DNA from: [Bacillus] enclensis
Lineage (GTDB): Bacteria > Bacillota > Bacilli > Bacillales > Bacillaceae_B
Direction: 5' to 3'
DNA: 64,000 nt
Assembly: GCF_001456935.1 (NCBI RefSeq)
Contig: NZ_KQ758484.1
Location: 314,793-378,792, forward strand
This document shows, one piece after another, positions 1,684 to 59,036 of this stretch. The notes under the pieces are model-generated. The model was not told where the DNA came from. It ran no database searches and worked only from the letters and a program-made list of their open reading frames with translations. The first letter of the stretch is position 1. Each line of letters opens with the position of its first letter. Both the position numbers and the translations under genes were made by a program.

Positions 1684-1738
1684 TGGTTTGGGCCCTGAGG
1701 TTGGATTGGAAACCGCCATATTAGAATCATTATTATAA

Positions 1739-1868
1739 GAGCATAAAATCTTGATTTAGAGCATATATTTTCAGATTGGAGCATAAAATCCGGGTTAGGA
1801 GCATAAATTTCCAGTTTGGAGCATAAAATTTGAATTAGGAGCATAAACCCCTGGATGGGAGCATATCT
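1739..1868. repeat. 20-bp pitch word array W1 (GAGCATAAA)
   Basis: Seven copies of a GAGCATAAA-like word whose GCATA starts lie at 1741, 1761, 1781, 1801, 1821, 1841 and 1861, an exact 20-bp pitch. Only the word is kept; the 8-10 bases between copies vary. The array fills the gap between the convergent yerO and DUF1284 genes. Nothing else was recognised in 1684-1998. Function unknown. Confidence 0.9.
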
Positions 1869-7260: not shown

Positions 7261-7328
7261 CTGTACCACCTCCATGTTTTAGTATGAGTTGTGCGGATTC
7301 AAAACATGCAGGGTTGTTTTTCGTCTAG

Positions 7329-7465
7329 CTCTTTTCGCATACTTTGTTGCTTTTGAACTTGGGTATTTACTGATGTCCGTCCACCTGTAGTTTAAACTTG
7401 AATTCGAAAAGAGCACGTCCACGAGCAATATTCAGACTGCCAGCCAATTTACGAAAAGCAACAAA
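7329..7465. repeat. inverted repeat element, about 137 bp
   Basis: TTTGTTGCTTTT (7343-7354) is inverted as AAAAGCAACAAA (7454-7465), and CTCTTTTCG (7329-7337) as CGAAAAGAG (7405-7413). The pairs overlap, so two alternative foldings are possible. Lies upstream of the small-gene operon and downstream of the YebC-family gene. No coding potential; resembles a degenerate miniature inverted-repeat element. Seen once in this window. Confidence 0.55.
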
Positions 7466-7497
7466 CTTTTAAAAAACAGCATCGTCTAAAAAAGCAA

Positions 7498-8258: not shown

Positions 8259-8374
8259 TCTGTTTCACTCTCTTTCAGTCTATAAAATTAATCGATAATG
8301 AATGTTTGTTTGTCCATTTCATTATACATGAAAAGGGCGAAAGTTGGCTAATGTGTTGGAGTGAGGCTAAAATA

Positions 8375-8432
8375 CGCAGTTGATTTCCGTGCAATGCTTC
8401 GCTTTCCGTCGGCGGTTGGTGAGCCTTAAGGT
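8375..8432 (+). repeat. R1 hairpin repeat, left arm only
   Basis: ACGCAGTTGATTTCCGTGCA and the following GCTTCGCTTTCC...GGTGAGCC match the left arm of the R1 element (complete copy at 34750-34880). No right arm follows. It lies in the 493-bp gap between gntK and the YebC-family gene; the rest of the gap holds only the W2 array and gntK's terminator. Confidence 0.75.
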
Positions 8433-8552: not shown

Positions 8553-8660
8553 TTATGATCCATTTTGGCGATTTATGTTCCATTTTAGAAATTTATGATC
8601 CATTCTGAAAAAATACGTTCCATTCTGGGAATTTATGATCCATTTCAGGAAAATATGATC
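8553..8660. repeat. 20-bp pitch word array W2 (GGATCATAAAT on minus strand)
   Basis: Blocks beginning CATTYT start at 8561, 8581, 8601, 8621 and 8641, with a weak sixth at 8661: exact 20-bp pitch. Each block ends ATGATC or ACGTTC/ATGTTC. Read on the minus strand the unit is GGATCATAAATT-NC-AGAAT, close to the W1 unit GGAGCATAAATTTCCAG. Function unknown. Confidence 0.9.
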
Positions 8661-8741
8661 TTTTAAGAATCATTCTAAATAAGTGGTCTGCTAAAAAGTA
8701 AATTGACATCTATATTATTCCTATTAAAAACTTCAAAAGAA

Positions 8742-15704: not shown

Positions 15705-15736
15705 CAAAAAAGCCCCTCCATCCAAGGCAGGGGCTC
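15705..15736 (-). terminator. terminator after helicase gene
   Basis: Minus-strand stem AGCCCCT (15735-15729) / AGGGGCT (15717-15711) followed by TTTTTTG. Confidence 0.85.
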
Positions 15737-18301: not shown

Positions 18302-18320
18302 CGGGTTTTATATACCACTG

Positions 18321-18372
18321 CCCGATTTCCGTGGAAGACTTCGCTTTCCGCGGGCGGACAGCGTCCCTCCTT
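18321..18372 (+). repeat. R1 hairpin repeat, left arm fragment
   Basis: CCCGATTTCCGTGGAAGACT and TCGCTTTCCGCGGGCGG match the R1 left arm; no right arm follows. Confidence 0.7.
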
Positions 18373-25511: not shown

Positions 25512-25859
25512 ATGGAAAAAGACTTACAGGTCAAAAAGGAAAGCAGGTGTTTCGATATTTTGAGCCAGGTTTACGAAAACAAAACCTTCAGTAACAGCGG
25601 TATGATCACATTACCCAAACAGTGGAGGCAGCGGTTCGGACTCATCCCGGGGAGATTGGCAGAGCTCATCTATCAAAACGATTCCATTTATATCAAACCC
25701 GCCCGAAAACATACTACCAATAACAAACGATATGTATCTGAAAAAGGAACCGTCCACATCCCGAAGGAACTCCGAGATGAAATGGGCATCACACCTCAAG
25801 ACTCCTACACCTTACACATCAATGAAGAACAGCGCTGTTTTATCCTTACATGCGAATAG
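25512..25859 (+). CDS. protein with two SpoVT/AbrB-like domains
   Basis: A 115-residue protein whose halves each look like an AbrB/MazE swapped-hairpin DNA-binding domain: SNSGMITLPKQWRQRFGLIP (residues about 28-47) and SEKGTVHIPKELRDEMGITP (about 77-96). One chain would therefore supply what AbrB forms as a dimer. No clear ribosome site precedes the ATG, so expression may be leaderless or weak. Could be a transition-state-type regulator or an orphan antitoxin; no toxin gene is adjacent. Confidence 0.72.
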   Translation: MEKDLQVKKESRCFDILSQVYENKTFSNSGMITLPKQWRQRFGLIPGRLAELIYQNDSIYIKPARKHTTNNKRYVSEKGTVHIPKELRDEMGITPQDSYTLHINEEQRCFILTCE

Positions 25860-26066
25860 AAAAGCGGAGGCGGCTCGTTCAGAGGCGACAAGCATAAGAC
25901 AGGGCGGCCATAAAGGCGTTTTTTGCCTTTTTGGCTGGCATGGCTTATGTCTCGAGCCTCTAGCCGCCGGAGCTGGACAAAGAAAAGCGGAGGGGCTTTG
26001 CCAAGAGGCGTGTGGCATAAGACGAACCGGACGGGAAGGCGGTCTTTGCCTTCTTAAATCATCCTG
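25858..26066 (+). repeat. R2 hairpin repeats, two direct copies
   Basis: Copy one (25858-25980) opens AGAAAAGCGGAGGCGGCT and closes AGCCGCCGGAGCTGGACAA, forming a hairpin with inner arms AAAGGCG and GCCTTT. Copy two starts directly at 25981 with AGAAAAGCGGAGGGGCTTTG and breaks off near 26066. Starts on the stop codon of the AbrB-like gene. Confidence 0.8.
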
Positions 26067-26112
26067 TGTACAGTTTGGATATTTTTGGTAAGTGGTGGAA
26101 TAAATCCTGGAA

Positions 26113-26217
26113 TTAAAAGATTATCCAGCAGAATTCGAAGATTATTGCCCGGAATTGAAAGATAAAGTCCAATTTTCGAAAGATTTTCGGCCAAAATTAA
26201 AAGATTACCCCGATTCC
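26113..26217. repeat. 21-bp pitch word array W4 (AAAGATTA)
   Basis: Five consecutive 21-bp blocks from 26113, with AGATT/AGATA at 26118, 26139, 26160, 26181 and 26202. Words include TTAAAAGATTA and TTGAAAGATAAA; spacers vary. Lies between convergent genes, between two R2 remnants. Confidence 0.88.
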
Positions 26218-33379: not shown

Positions 33380-33450
33380 GATCTCCCTCCTGGTTTGTTT
33401 GTCTTTATAGCTTCTATTGTGGTTCGTATCCCTATGAAAATCTTACTTTA

Positions 33451-33540
33451 TGCTCGGAATTTTCGATTTATGCTCGAAAATCCTGCAAGTATGCTCGCTT
33501 TCATCATATTTTTGCTCGAATTCTATGATCTTTGCTCTAA
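33451..33540. repeat. 20/21-bp pitch word array W5 (GAGCATAAA on minus strand), inside leu operon
   Basis: TGCTC at 33451, 33471, 33492, 33513 and 33533 (steps 20, 21, 21, 20). On the minus strand the word is CGAGCATAAA, the same core as W1. It is transcribed with the operon, between leuB and leuC. Confidence 0.88.
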
Positions 33541-33598
33541 ATGTCGAATTTCATCGAGTGTCCACACACGTTGAAGCGAGTCTATTATCCTTTCCTTC

Positions 33599-39884: not shown

Positions 39885-40185
39885 TAAAAAAGCCTTTCCA
39901 CCCACTACGTCAGAATTTGATCTTTCGCAGGGGTGAAAAGGCTTTGTTCCTTTCCACGGTACCACCCTAGTTCAGAGACGACACGGGGCCGTCTCCCTCA
40001 GCAGGCTGACTTTATTGGCATCAGCCTTTGTTTTTGTAACGAGTAACAGCTACTCGATCGTTCCTACTCCGATGTTTCAGAACGATACTCAGAGGGGATG
40101 TCGGTATCGGATGTATTACTGGTTTGCAGCACCACCAGCTCTCTGGAAATACAAGTCCCGATCCTTTAACCTCTTCAACGCTTTC
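39885..40185 (-). promoter_or_regulatory. T-box riboswitch between ilvD and ilvB
   Basis: Minus-strand leader with the T-box sequence AGGGTGGTACCGTGGAA (39968-39952), a terminator stem formed by 39945-39931 and 39903-39889 with a T run, and a long stem I region including GAGAGCTGGTGGTGCTGCAA and ACCAG. It senses an uncharged tRNA and allows readthrough into ilvB. The specifier loop appears to be in GATACCGACATCCCC; ATC (Ile) is a candidate but I could not fix it with certainty. B. subtilis ilvB has a leucine T box in the comparable position. Confidence 0.9.
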
Positions 40186-40188
40186 AAT

Positions 40189-43168: not shown

Positions 43169-43225
43169 ATGAATAAGGATTTAGGTGATTCTCAGTTTCA
43201 AAGAATAATTGATAATAGCGAATGA
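43169..43225 (+). other. 18-codon reading frame with strong ribosome site
   Basis: AGAAGGAGG followed 9 bases later by ATG and 18 codons (MNKDLGDSQFQRIIDNSE). Ends 15 bp before an R1 element. May be a leader peptide, the remnant of a gene broken by the repeat, or chance. Confidence 0.3.
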
Positions 43226-43240
43226 GTATCGGACTTTAAT

Positions 43241-43494
43241 ACGCAGTTGATTTCCGTGAAAGACTTCGCTTTCCGCGGGTAGCCCGTGAGCCTCCTCGGC
43301 TGCGCCTCCGGGGTCTCACTTGTACAGCTGCAGGGCTTAGAGGCACATGTCATAAGCCAAACCGACCAAGAAGGCAAAGAACGCCTTCGTGGCCGATTCG
43401 TCTTATGCCACCCGCCTCTTAGCAAAGCCCTTCCGCTTTTCTATTAGCTACTCTTCCCGCAGGAGTCTTCGTCTTTCACTCCAATCAACTGCTG
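43241..43494 (+). repeat. R1 hairpin repeat with nested R2
   Basis: Ends GCAGTTGATT/AATCAACTGC and inner arms GTGAAAGAC/GTCTTTCAC pair perfectly but differ from the copy at 34750, showing paired changes. Nested R2 at 43324-43442. With the ilvE promoter region and the terminator at 43605 this fills the 878-bp gap; 43495-43604 shows nothing else. Confidence 0.85.
43324..43442 (-). repeat. R2 hairpin repeat nested in R1
   Basis: Opposite orientation to the copy at 30026: begins ACAGCTGCAGGGCTTAGAGG, ends AGCAAAGCCCTTCCGCTTTT; inner arms GAAGGCAAAGAACGCCTTC. Confidence 0.8.
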
Positions 43495-53580: not shown

Positions 53581-53609
53581 TTCATCACCTCGTGTGGTGC
53601 TTATTTTTT

Positions 53610-53850
53610 ATTGTCCAGCTCCAGGGCTTAGAGGCACTTGTCATAAGCCAAATGGTCCATGAAGGCAAAATACGCCTTCATCTTATGTTTGTCACCTCTG
53701 AACGAGCCGCCTACGTTTTTCTTATTGTCCAGCTCCGGCGGCTAGCCCCTCGAGGTCATAAGCCATGGCTGCCATAAAGGCAAAGAACGCCTTTTTGGCA
53801 CCCCTGCCTTATGCTTGTCGGGGCTGAGCAAGCCACCTCCGCTTTTCTTA
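53610..53850 (-). repeat. R2 hairpin repeats, direct tandem pair between bcd and bkdAA
   Basis: Two copies in the same orientation (53610-53723 and 53724-53850), each from ATTGTCCAGCTCC to CGCTTTTCTT (CGTTTTTCTT in the first). The second ends on the bcd stop codon. They fill the gap inside this otherwise compact operon. Confidence 0.85.
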
Positions 53851-54954
53851 TTGCCTTACTGCCCATTTAGGCCGTTTCATGTGTGAGAAGAAGCTGTTTC
53901 TTCTTGAGCGGGAGTGGATGCGGTCTTCGCAGAAGCGGTCCGCTGCTTCCATTGTGGTCATCTGCTGGTTCTCTGCTTGAAGGTAAATATTCTGAAGTGT
54001 GTTATAGATGGCACTTGTCTTTTGAAGGACCCGCTCTTTATTCGGTTCGTATAATTCATCTGCCACCTGGATCAATCCGCCGGCATTGACGATGTAATCC
54101 GGGGCGTAAAGGATTCCTTTTTCATGAAGCTTCAACCCATGGGACAGGTCGAGAAGCTGGTTGTTGGCTGACCCTGCGACTGCCTTCACTTTCAGCTGGT
54201 CGATCGTGTCGTCATTAATGATTCCGCCGATTGCACACGGCACGAAGACATCGGCATCGACTGAATAAATTTCATCGCCTGATACGACTTTGATGGCCGC
54301 TCCCATGCTTTTCGCCTTTGATACCAGCTGATCAATCGAACCTTGATTGATATCGGTCACATACAGATCCGCCCCTTCATCCAGGAGGCGCTCGGCCACT
54401 TTATAACCGACTTTCCCAAGGCCCTGGATCGCATAGCTCTTCCCGTGCAGGTCCCTTGATCCCCAGATGGTCTGGTTCGTTGCCTGCAGTCCGTAAATGA
54501 CCCCCATTGCAGTCGGGATCGACGAGTCTCCGCTTCCTCCGTATACTTCATCGACACCTACTATGCAATTCGTTTCTTTCAGTGCATAGACAAAATCTTC
54601 AGGTTCTGTCCCCATGTCTGTTCCGGTGTAGAAACGGCCGTTCAGGGATTCCACAAATTGACCGAAGGCACGGAATAATTCAGGATGCTTATCCTTCGCA
54701 GGGTCACCGATGATGACTGCCTTTCCTCCCCCGAAATCAACGTCTGCCGCAGCGCATTTGTACGTCATTCCCTTTGACAGGCGAAGCACATCGTTCAACG
54801 CTTCATCCACTGAGCCGTACGGCCTCATGCGGCAGCCGCCGAGTGCCGGGCCGAGTGTCGTGTTATGTATTGCGATTATGGCTTTGAGTCCTGTATCTTC
54901 ATCATTACAAAAAACAACTTGTTCATGGTTCTTGATTTGTTCAAACATATCCAT
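53848..54954 (-). CDS. bcd: leucine dehydrogenase Bcd
   Basis: A 368-residue NAD-dependent dehydrogenase deaminating Leu, Ile and Val. [20 protein letters not shown] with [11 protein letters not shown], catalytic lysine in [20 protein letters not shown], and NAD motif [20 protein letters not shown] near residue 173. Supplies the 2-oxo acids for the Bkd complex. The C-terminus ([20 protein letters not shown]) ends exactly at the R2 repeat. A perfect cre site lies 21 bp upstream of the start. Confidence 0.94.
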
Positions 54955-58706: not shown

Positions 58707-58840
58707 TAAAAATTAATACTAGTATAGACGGTTTGGGTCTGAATATCTAGATGAATTTTTGATTTTTTAATAGTGTGACCGGGAGGGAAGGGTGTTGCTT
58801 TCGTGGTGAGCGCGAATAGTGTCGTATTTTGTAGAATGGT

Positions 58841-58945
58841 CGATATATTAAAATTTCGGACGATAAATTGATATTATGATCGATAAAAAAAAGGTTTTAG
58901 GAGATATCTCAAAAAACGGACGATAAAATCGATAAACGGTCGATA
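58841..58945. repeat. 20-bp pitch word array W6 (GGACGATAAA)
   Basis: CGATA at 58841, 58861, 58881, 58921 and 58941, with GAGATA at 58901: six units on an exact 20-bp pitch. An extra CGATA lies out of register at 58930. Words GGTCGATA and GGACGATAAA. The rest of 58707-59036 shows nothing recognisable. Confidence 0.88.
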
Positions 58946-59036
58946 ACCCGTTGTCTGGCCAGTGCCCATCTGTTGTATTGAAGATTGCTTCCAACAACAA
59001 AGCATGCCCCCCTAAAAGGAACATGCCTCTTCTCCA

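Follow-up and report, generated by a model that had tools for sequence, protein, structure and literature searches.

The stretch analysed here, referred to as the window, comprises 64,000 nucleotides of [Bacillus] enclensis (contig NZ_KQ758484.1, positions 314,793 to 378,792 of the forward strand; G000:C3:314793-378792 in our coding, G000 being the genome of 4.48 Mb). Its intergenic DNA carries six arrays, W1 to W6, in which a short word recurs five to seven times at steps of 20 or 21 bp. All six had been claimed in the original prediction, made from the letters alone, and base-by-base reading confirmed every one of them in its place. A second count by eye also returned the same 34 units, 17 of them with an ATAAA continuation. 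The arrays and the special first units, or heads, that accompany them are the following:

1721..1738, plus strand, head unit of W1, TTAGAATCATTATTATAA, of the 7-1-7 inverted-repeat type
1739..1867, plus strand, W1, word GGAGCATAAA, seven units, all steps 20
8554..8662, minus strand, W2, word GGATCATAAA/GGAACGTATT, six units, steps 20
8661..8678, minus strand, head unit of W2, TTAGAATGATTCTTAAAA
15608..15700, minus strand, W3, word CTTGAAAATAAA, five units, steps 21
15705..15735, minus strand, terminator-like hairpin with its T run, belonging to the helicase gene and immediately preceding W3, read by eye
26081..26112, plus strand, head of W4, TTTTTGGTAAGTGGTGGAAT..., resembling the heads of other arrays in the W4 word family
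26113..26205, plus strand, W4, word types AATTCGAAGATTAT / AATTAAAAGATTAT, five units, steps 21
33448..33538, minus strand, W5, word CGAGCATAAA, five units, steps 20, 21, 21, 20
33539..33551, minus strand, head of W5, AAATTCGACATTT; TTCGACA heads also occur in other families
58820..58838, plus strand, head of W6, TGTCGTATTTTGTAGAATG, resembling array heads in B. pakistanensis and other Rossellomorea
58838..58947, plus strand, W6, word GGACGATAAA/GGTCGATA, six units at 20, one of them degenerate by eye, under the scan cut-off

Further arrays were sought with a chain scan, in which dynamic programming joins 9-base words at steps of 20 or 21 and the score is the number of matches minus 5.5 per step. 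The cut-off was a score of at least 6, raised to at least 6.5 for the placement between genes and lowered to at least 5 for one statement on Y1 transposase loci. W1 to W5 score at least 6, and W6 scores 4, only a run of three units being detected there. No array of score at least 6 is present in 5, and then in 100, Markov-3 copies of the window. In the pitch spectrum of G000 (the window and 20 further stretches, 459 kb) 31 arrays were found at 20/21, against 2, 1, 0 and 2 at the control pitches 12/13, 14/15, 16/17 and 18/19, and 0, 2, 0, 0 and 1 at 22/23, 24/25, 26/27, 28/29 and 31/32. Six of the 20 extra stretches had been picked for a BLAST match to W1; the 14 others, not picked by match, hold 15 arrays in 280 kb, which would extrapolate to about 240 arrays per genome if these are evenly spread.

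The nearest named relatives belong to Rossellomorea, and the sister species (G200) is 90-92% identical to G000. The 20/21 peak is also present in G200 (17 arrays in 260 kb, 0-1 at other pitches except 24/25), in G011 (7 arrays in 200 kb, 0-1 at other pitches) and in G016 (9 arrays in 200 kb, none at other pitches). The stretches of G200 contain four chains at 24/25, exceeding its other control pitches. Array density in the four sampled Rossellomorea genomes is one per roughly 15-30 kb, and two other species of this genus have arrays with the same pitch and mostly different words. The chain scan found no array in 140 kb of each of two genomes of other families and a single one in a total of 349 kb from 20 further genomes of the order, two of which were represented by less than 3 kb. 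Genome G022, from another family of the order, has 2 arrays in 120 kb, and the stretch with one of these had been picked for its match. A scan of 79 loci over all taxa gave 17 arrays at 20/21 alongside 15 at 18/19, 9 at 14/15 and 7 at 24/25; by itself it is no test of the pitch, because other pitches are also frequent over all taxa. Fourteen of these 17 lie in Rossellomorea, nearby Bacillus or Alteribacter, and the other 3, in unrelated bacteria, resemble GC-rich codon-type repeats. Phages and plasmids gave no blastn match to the one family A element used as query. In viral contigs the two-word pattern occurs in 105 stretches, near the chance expectation by our estimate, and three-word patterns in 2 and 1 contigs; of these cases, two are perfect tandem repeats of 21 bp and the third has 3-4 units in a row. 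No gathering match of Rfam falls at the six window arrays.

When oriented by their ATAA-like half, the words consist of a variable prefix followed by (C/G/A)ATAA. Those of G000 are GGATCATAAA, GGAGCATAAA, GGCGCAATAA, GGCACAATAA, TGGCTCGTATT, TTTTGATAATA, GGTCGATAA, TCGCCCTTATA, CTTGAAAATAAA and TTCGAAGATTAT, and words of other species include GACGCATAAA, TAACGGCGAAA and GTGGCACAA. The arrays group into word families, which have heads. Head TTAGAATNATTCTNATA precedes GGATCATA at 21 places in G000 and at none in the reversed-pattern control, counted with the pattern TTAGAATNATTNT followed by GATCATA; W1 itself has GAGCATA. By consensus read by eye, head TTTTTCGACAAG precedes TGGCTCGTA, head TTTTTGGTAAGTGACGGAATTAT precedes the GAAGATTAT family, and TGTCG(A/T)ATTTTGTNGAAYGGTCRATA-like heads precede GGTCGATA and GGACAAATA arrays. 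The families are patchily distributed: GGCGCAAT pairs occur in 4 of 36 genomes of the genus and GGCACAAT pairs in 5 of 36. Among 199 genomes of the order, 4, including one from another family, have three GGATCATA words at array spacing.

Most arrays have 5-8 units, with up to 23 in the relative G045, in which three long GGAGCATA arrays (L245, L246 and L247) have 20, 23 and 17 units; that of L245 follows a metal-ATPase-like gene and precedes a coxB-like one, the gene names being our own reading. G022 has an array of 34 units (L070 7924-8625) and another of 13 units (L066 9929-10186), with a pitch of 21 (20), the latter following a relative of the kinase gene that adjoins W2.

In the 78 arrays with at least five units, neighbouring units are identical at 0.857 of word positions, a value raised by the scan's selection for alike words although the same scan finds none in simulated DNA, and at 0.406 of spacer positions. 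The spacers tend to alternate between two types, giving a super-period of 40-42 bp: spacer identity is 0.453 two units apart versus 0.406 one apart, rising in 45 arrays and falling in 32. The clearest alternation is that of GGATC-ATAAAT... and GGATC-GTATTT... units. The 40-bp super-repeats, together with two gaps (20 and 42 bp) by which sister arrays differ in whole units, would suit an origin of the arrays as ordinary tandem duplications that have since decayed. Such decay, however, would not leave 9 columns at 0.86 identity and the next 9 at 0.41, nor would it give one pitch in all families, and we lend this explanation hardly any credence. The words and spacers thus uphold the earlier statement that these are not ordinary tandem repeats.

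The comparison of G000 with its sister species indicates that the words are conserved where they stand. In 15 alignable loci (14 orthologous arrays and the decayed W1) substitutions affect 77 of 757 word positions (10.2%), 155 of 774 spacer positions (20.0%) and 335 of 1855 flanking positions (18.1%), the difference between word and spacer having p 7e-8; gaps number 22 in the arrays and 102 in the flanks. The ratio of word to spacer change is near one half in this wider count. A narrower count of 12 loci, which omits three that are long or align poorly, gives 42 of 542 for words, 92 of 541 for spacers and 247 of 1474 for flanks, with 9 gaps in arrays versus 64 in flanks. Because the arrays had been found by their words in G000, neutral change was simulated at these 12 loci with the same detection rule and three starting purities. 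The expected word divergence is 0.144-0.163 and that observed 0.077, and none of 2000 sets was as low at each setting. Assigned to branches, the 42 word differences fall into 15 in G200, 18 in G000, 4 in both and 5 ties. Moreover, 12 arrays ascertained in G200 gave 0.061 for words, 0.177 for spacers and 0.159 for flanks, and removal of two near-identical loci from the 12-locus count left 0.092, 0.202 and 0.193, respectively. Short of experiment, this slower change of words than of spacers is the strongest sign of function in place.

It had also been proposed to see whether arrays at orthologous loci keep their pitch while the words change. This is supported by word shifts at some loci and by the different arrays that follow one helicase gene across Rossellomorea, but most orthologous arrays keep their word. 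At one locus the GGCGC words of G000 stand opposite GGCAC in the aligned units of G200. Two others have CGCAC in G000 and CGCCC in G200; replacement by another array instead of a change of word is possible there because the alignment is poor, with 19/42 and 17/56 spacer positions different. In G200 the words within an array are homogeneous: the neighbouring pairs of GGCRCAAT words (n=38) are 21 G-G, 11 A-A and 6 mixed, versus 17.7 mixed expected (p 7e-5).

The placement of the arrays was assessed with our own gene calls in the four Rossellomorea genomes, arrays at the ends of stretches being skipped and one array lying inside a called open reading frame (ORF). Of the 67 arrays between two called genes, 24 occupy convergent gaps, 40 co-directional and 3 divergent ones, whereas the bases in gaps of at least 120 are 17.2% convergent, 65.2% co-directional and 17.5% divergent. 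The binomial p is 2e-4 for the convergent and 1.4e-3 for the divergent class, some arrays of G000 and G200 being orthologous and so not independent. The earlier statement that all arrays touch the 3' end of a gene is true of the six, and in the wider set 64 of 67 lie in gaps bordered by such an end, the 3 divergent ones being the remainder. For the 39 oriented co-directional arrays the median distance is 145 bp to the stop codon upstream and 240 bp to the start codon downstream.

This placement at gene ends, along with one subfamily whose conserved tail closes in a terminator-like hairpin, would agree with an RNA-level element at transcript ends, one of the candidates of the original prediction. 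However, the folding z-scores of 47 arrays, taken against 40 dinucleotide shuffles each, have means of +0.07 (oriented strand) and +0.23 (opposite strand), which is no signal, and a column-pairing search in 65 arrays, made with no significance test, revealed no antiparallel stem that stands out. Several of the top-ranked column pairs in that search link a column with its counterpart in the adjacent unit and so reflect the alternation already described. In addition, there is no strong strand rule (23 of the 39 oriented arrays run with the genes and 16 against), and the pitch is that of two turns of DNA. This candidate is accordingly set aside as quite unlikely.

The same pitch could be thought to reflect DNA that is curved with no protein, phased A/T tracts bending the gene ends. 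Predicted from wedge values, the curvature does exceed that of shuffles (mean z 0.95, 23 of 78 arrays above 1.64). Against column-permuted units of equal pitch the mean z drops to 0.58, with 15 of 78 arrays above 1.64, so part of the raised curvature follows from the fact that any periodic sequence gives some. Nor does bending need family-specific words containing G and C, and we think curvature a very improbable explanation of the arrays. The original prediction had named a phased DNA-binding or DNA-bending protein as the other candidate. The binding part is favoured by the fixed two-turn pitch, the word proper to each array and the lack of conservation of the spacers; bending alone gains little from the predictions above.

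The arrays turn over between species. In G200 the site of W1 is shortened and partly decayed, that of W2 has six units with a different word mix, that of W3 has three detected units, and no array is present at the orthologous place of W4; W5 is retained, and W6 is retained with few changes. Among 19 arrays of G000 in 264 kb, 14 are matched by an array at the corresponding site of G200, 4 (including the decayed W1) are not, and 1 lacks an orthologous region. The helicase protein adjoining W3 is 98% identical in R. aquimaris SAMM, in which a 3-unit remnant follows the gene. Among 26 loci downstream of this helicase gene a different array, AACGGTTGATA with pitch 20, was found in five, and B. pakistanensis has a GGACAAATAAT array with pitch 21; at the other 19 the scan finds no array beside the gene, and a few look decayed by eye. 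Near-identical arrays also stand in unlike left flanks, as in two copies in L028, which share 0.95 identity in the element, 0.53 in the left flank and 0.75 in the right flank. The arrays are therefore multi-copy, non-coding, intergenic and set in unlike flanks, like other small dispersed repeats. In the copies of family A no terminal inverted repeats or target duplication were seen by eye, and no clean empty site was obtained.

These properties lead to the main rival explanation, namely that the arrays are non-autonomous mobile elements, each array being the end or the whole of a small element and the words the sites of a transposase or recombinase, with no host role for the resident copies. 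The near-identical copies in unlike left flanks, the gain and loss between species, the avoidance of divergent gaps and the heads that start with TGTCG in some families are all in its favour. At the ends of Tn7-like, Tn5053-like and IS21-like elements, similar direct sites of about 20-22 bp are known to stand in rows; the arrays are like these in their rows of direct sites and in the TGTC with which some heads start, and unlike them in that no second inverted end with a transposase was seen, our stretches being 20 kb or shorter. A single inverted pair of one family was found (L036 7676/14568), and by our reading it encloses ordinary genes. Mu_transpos_C, the TnsB/TniA-type transposase tried as the partner, has no match in G000, G200 and G045 and occurs in 6 of 36 genomes of the genus, the search not extending to IstA-type and other rve transposases. 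Words that change slower than spacers at resident loci also speak against such copies being without a role. We regard the mobile element explanation as a serious minority possibility; were the arrays element ends, an undescribed transposition system would be indicated.

Another possibility is that the arrays are REP-like elements (repetitive extragenic palindromes) on which chromosomal Y1 tyrosine transposases act, either moving or binding them. Y1 genes, whose length and motif we read as RAYT-like, gave 2-3 matches in each of the 7 array-bearing genomes searched and none in G024, which has no arrays in 140 kb; in G027, equally devoid of arrays in 140 kb, they are nevertheless present. Nineteen of 20 scanned Y1 loci (9-kb stretches, 20 of 25 matches) are without an array of score 6, and Y1/RAYT was rejected as the partner. 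The sole exception is in G022, where an array of five units lies about 60 bp from the gene start. In about 117 kb around 13 Y1 loci of five Rossellomorea genomes (L439-L441, L445-L447, L451-L457) no array of score at least 5 is present, about 4-8 being expected from the densities in the pitch spectra. As to the heads, some have a 6-bp inverted repeat with a 4-base middle, and in one word family TGTCGA or TGTAGA inverted repeats occur in the heads at 7 of 8 starts, the eighth (G200 C105 108140) having no such head. Pairing in these heads is nevertheless not above shuffles (88.1% versus 84.3%, 145 of 500, with 7 sequences), so covariation lends the hairpin no support at this number of sequences, and the heads of other families have no hairpin by eye. 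A REP-like nature of the arrays is thus unlikely.

Several known systems resemble the arrays in part. The iteron arrays of plasmid origins consist of several direct repeats about two helical turns apart, with lineage-specific words and an operator-like inverted repeat adjoining them. The arrays share the two-turn direct repeats, the several copies, the lineage-specific words and the inverted repeat beside them; they differ in their hundreds (extrapolated) of chromosomal intergenic copies, in their many words and in that no shared adjoining gene was found. No Rep gene emerged beside them as a shared ORF cluster, no profile search for Rep proteins having been made. Like miniature inverted-repeat transposable elements, REP/REPIN and bcr repeats (PMC3733652), the arrays are small, non-coding, dispersed, intergenic and patchy among species; unlike them, they have a phased direct word unit and many words on one pitch, and no terminal inverted repeats were seen. 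The TAACTGA direct repeats of Beggiatoaceae form 169 intergenic sets, most of them just upstream of start codons (PMC4679880). Both kinds have a short word in intergenic direct-repeat sets at many loci, and neither has a known binder; the TAACTGA repeats differ in having one heptamer, mostly near start codons, and no 20/21 bp pitch was found described for them. These repeats excepted, none of the results listed from the open-licence literature describes such arrays, and those on RAYT and on Tn7-like ends named only neighbouring systems. Small dispersed intergenic repeats are a known class; what we did not find described in those results is a single rigid pitch shared by many words, with units that alternate and words that change more slowly.

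The explanation that we favour, with about even confidence, is that the arrays are cooperative DNA-binding platforms, each word having its own protein, and that they belong to a family of small intergenic elements that is dispersed and turns over. Each array would be a row of binding sites on one face of the helix and two turns apart, to which a sequence-specific protein may bind cooperatively, probably as dimers spanning two alternating 20-21 bp units, while the head would nucleate or end the row. Because many families share the ATAA-like half and have a variable prefix of 4-6 bp, we infer that the word families are read by several related proteins whose specificities are diverging. The rows would spread as small dispersed intergenic elements, being gained and lost between species, and resident rows may be kept by selection on the word and, less surely, on the pitch. 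The bound protein would most likely be useful or tolerated at gene ends, for example by blocking read-through or organising the chromosome.

Several observations weigh against these platforms. The array W1 is absent from all 19 relative loci scanned and is therefore not needed there. Of the 22 gaps that interrupt orthologous arrays, just 2 (20 and 42 bp) correspond to whole units, which means that many arrays simply erode and that the pitch is held less strictly; gain and loss of whole units as a rule was rejected on this count. Intergenic alignments are noisy. In G000 the GGCRCAAT pairs are 30 G-G, 2 A-A and 6 mixed versus about 8.7 mixed expected by our own arithmetic, so homogeneity is not above expectation. 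No binding protein was found: apart from orthologues and widespread ABC and SDR proteins, ORFs of at least 90 residues within 2 kb of arrays share no cluster with four or more members. The regions around Y1 transposase genes are array-poor.

A bolder form of the platform explanation, which we hold only tentatively and as less than probable, is a chromosome-wide diversified recognition system. Its related proteins would each read a particular word in a particular set of two-turn phased arrays at gene ends, and specificity and words would shift together between sister species at a fixed pitch. If the arrays bind proteins, they would form a large unrecognised layer of DNA-protein contacts at the gene ends of Rossellomorea. 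The hundreds of arrays (extrapolated), their many words and the sister species with some shifted words would then be natural replicates, in which the co-evolution of a DNA-binding protein and its sites is directly testable.

Some further repeats and one RNA were recorded around the arrays. A subfamily of the GGATCATA elements (G200; L028 at 15.8 and 17.5 kb, L092 and L106) has a conserved tail of about 110 bases with the terminator-like end GGGCAGG...CCTGTCCTTTT, and a gene or gene start in the same orientation comes next where the locus extends that far. The array flanks in L028, L092, L106, L248 and G000 C3b 37141 contain recurrent intergenic GGTACCTGTCCCC-like and TGGTGCCTGGCAC-like repeats. 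Within the window, 7327-7480 is a dispersed repeat of about 155 bp that is not an array and for which G200 has 29 further listed matches, 8366-8426 and 18308-18370 are short multi-copy repeats with many matches in G045, and 25855-26062, 43221-43494 and 53604-53853 are intergenic stretches that each match the examined part of G200 more than once. Finally, Rfam places a T-box leader (RF00230) at 39926-40187 on the minus strand, with 93.8 bits versus a gathering score of 93.
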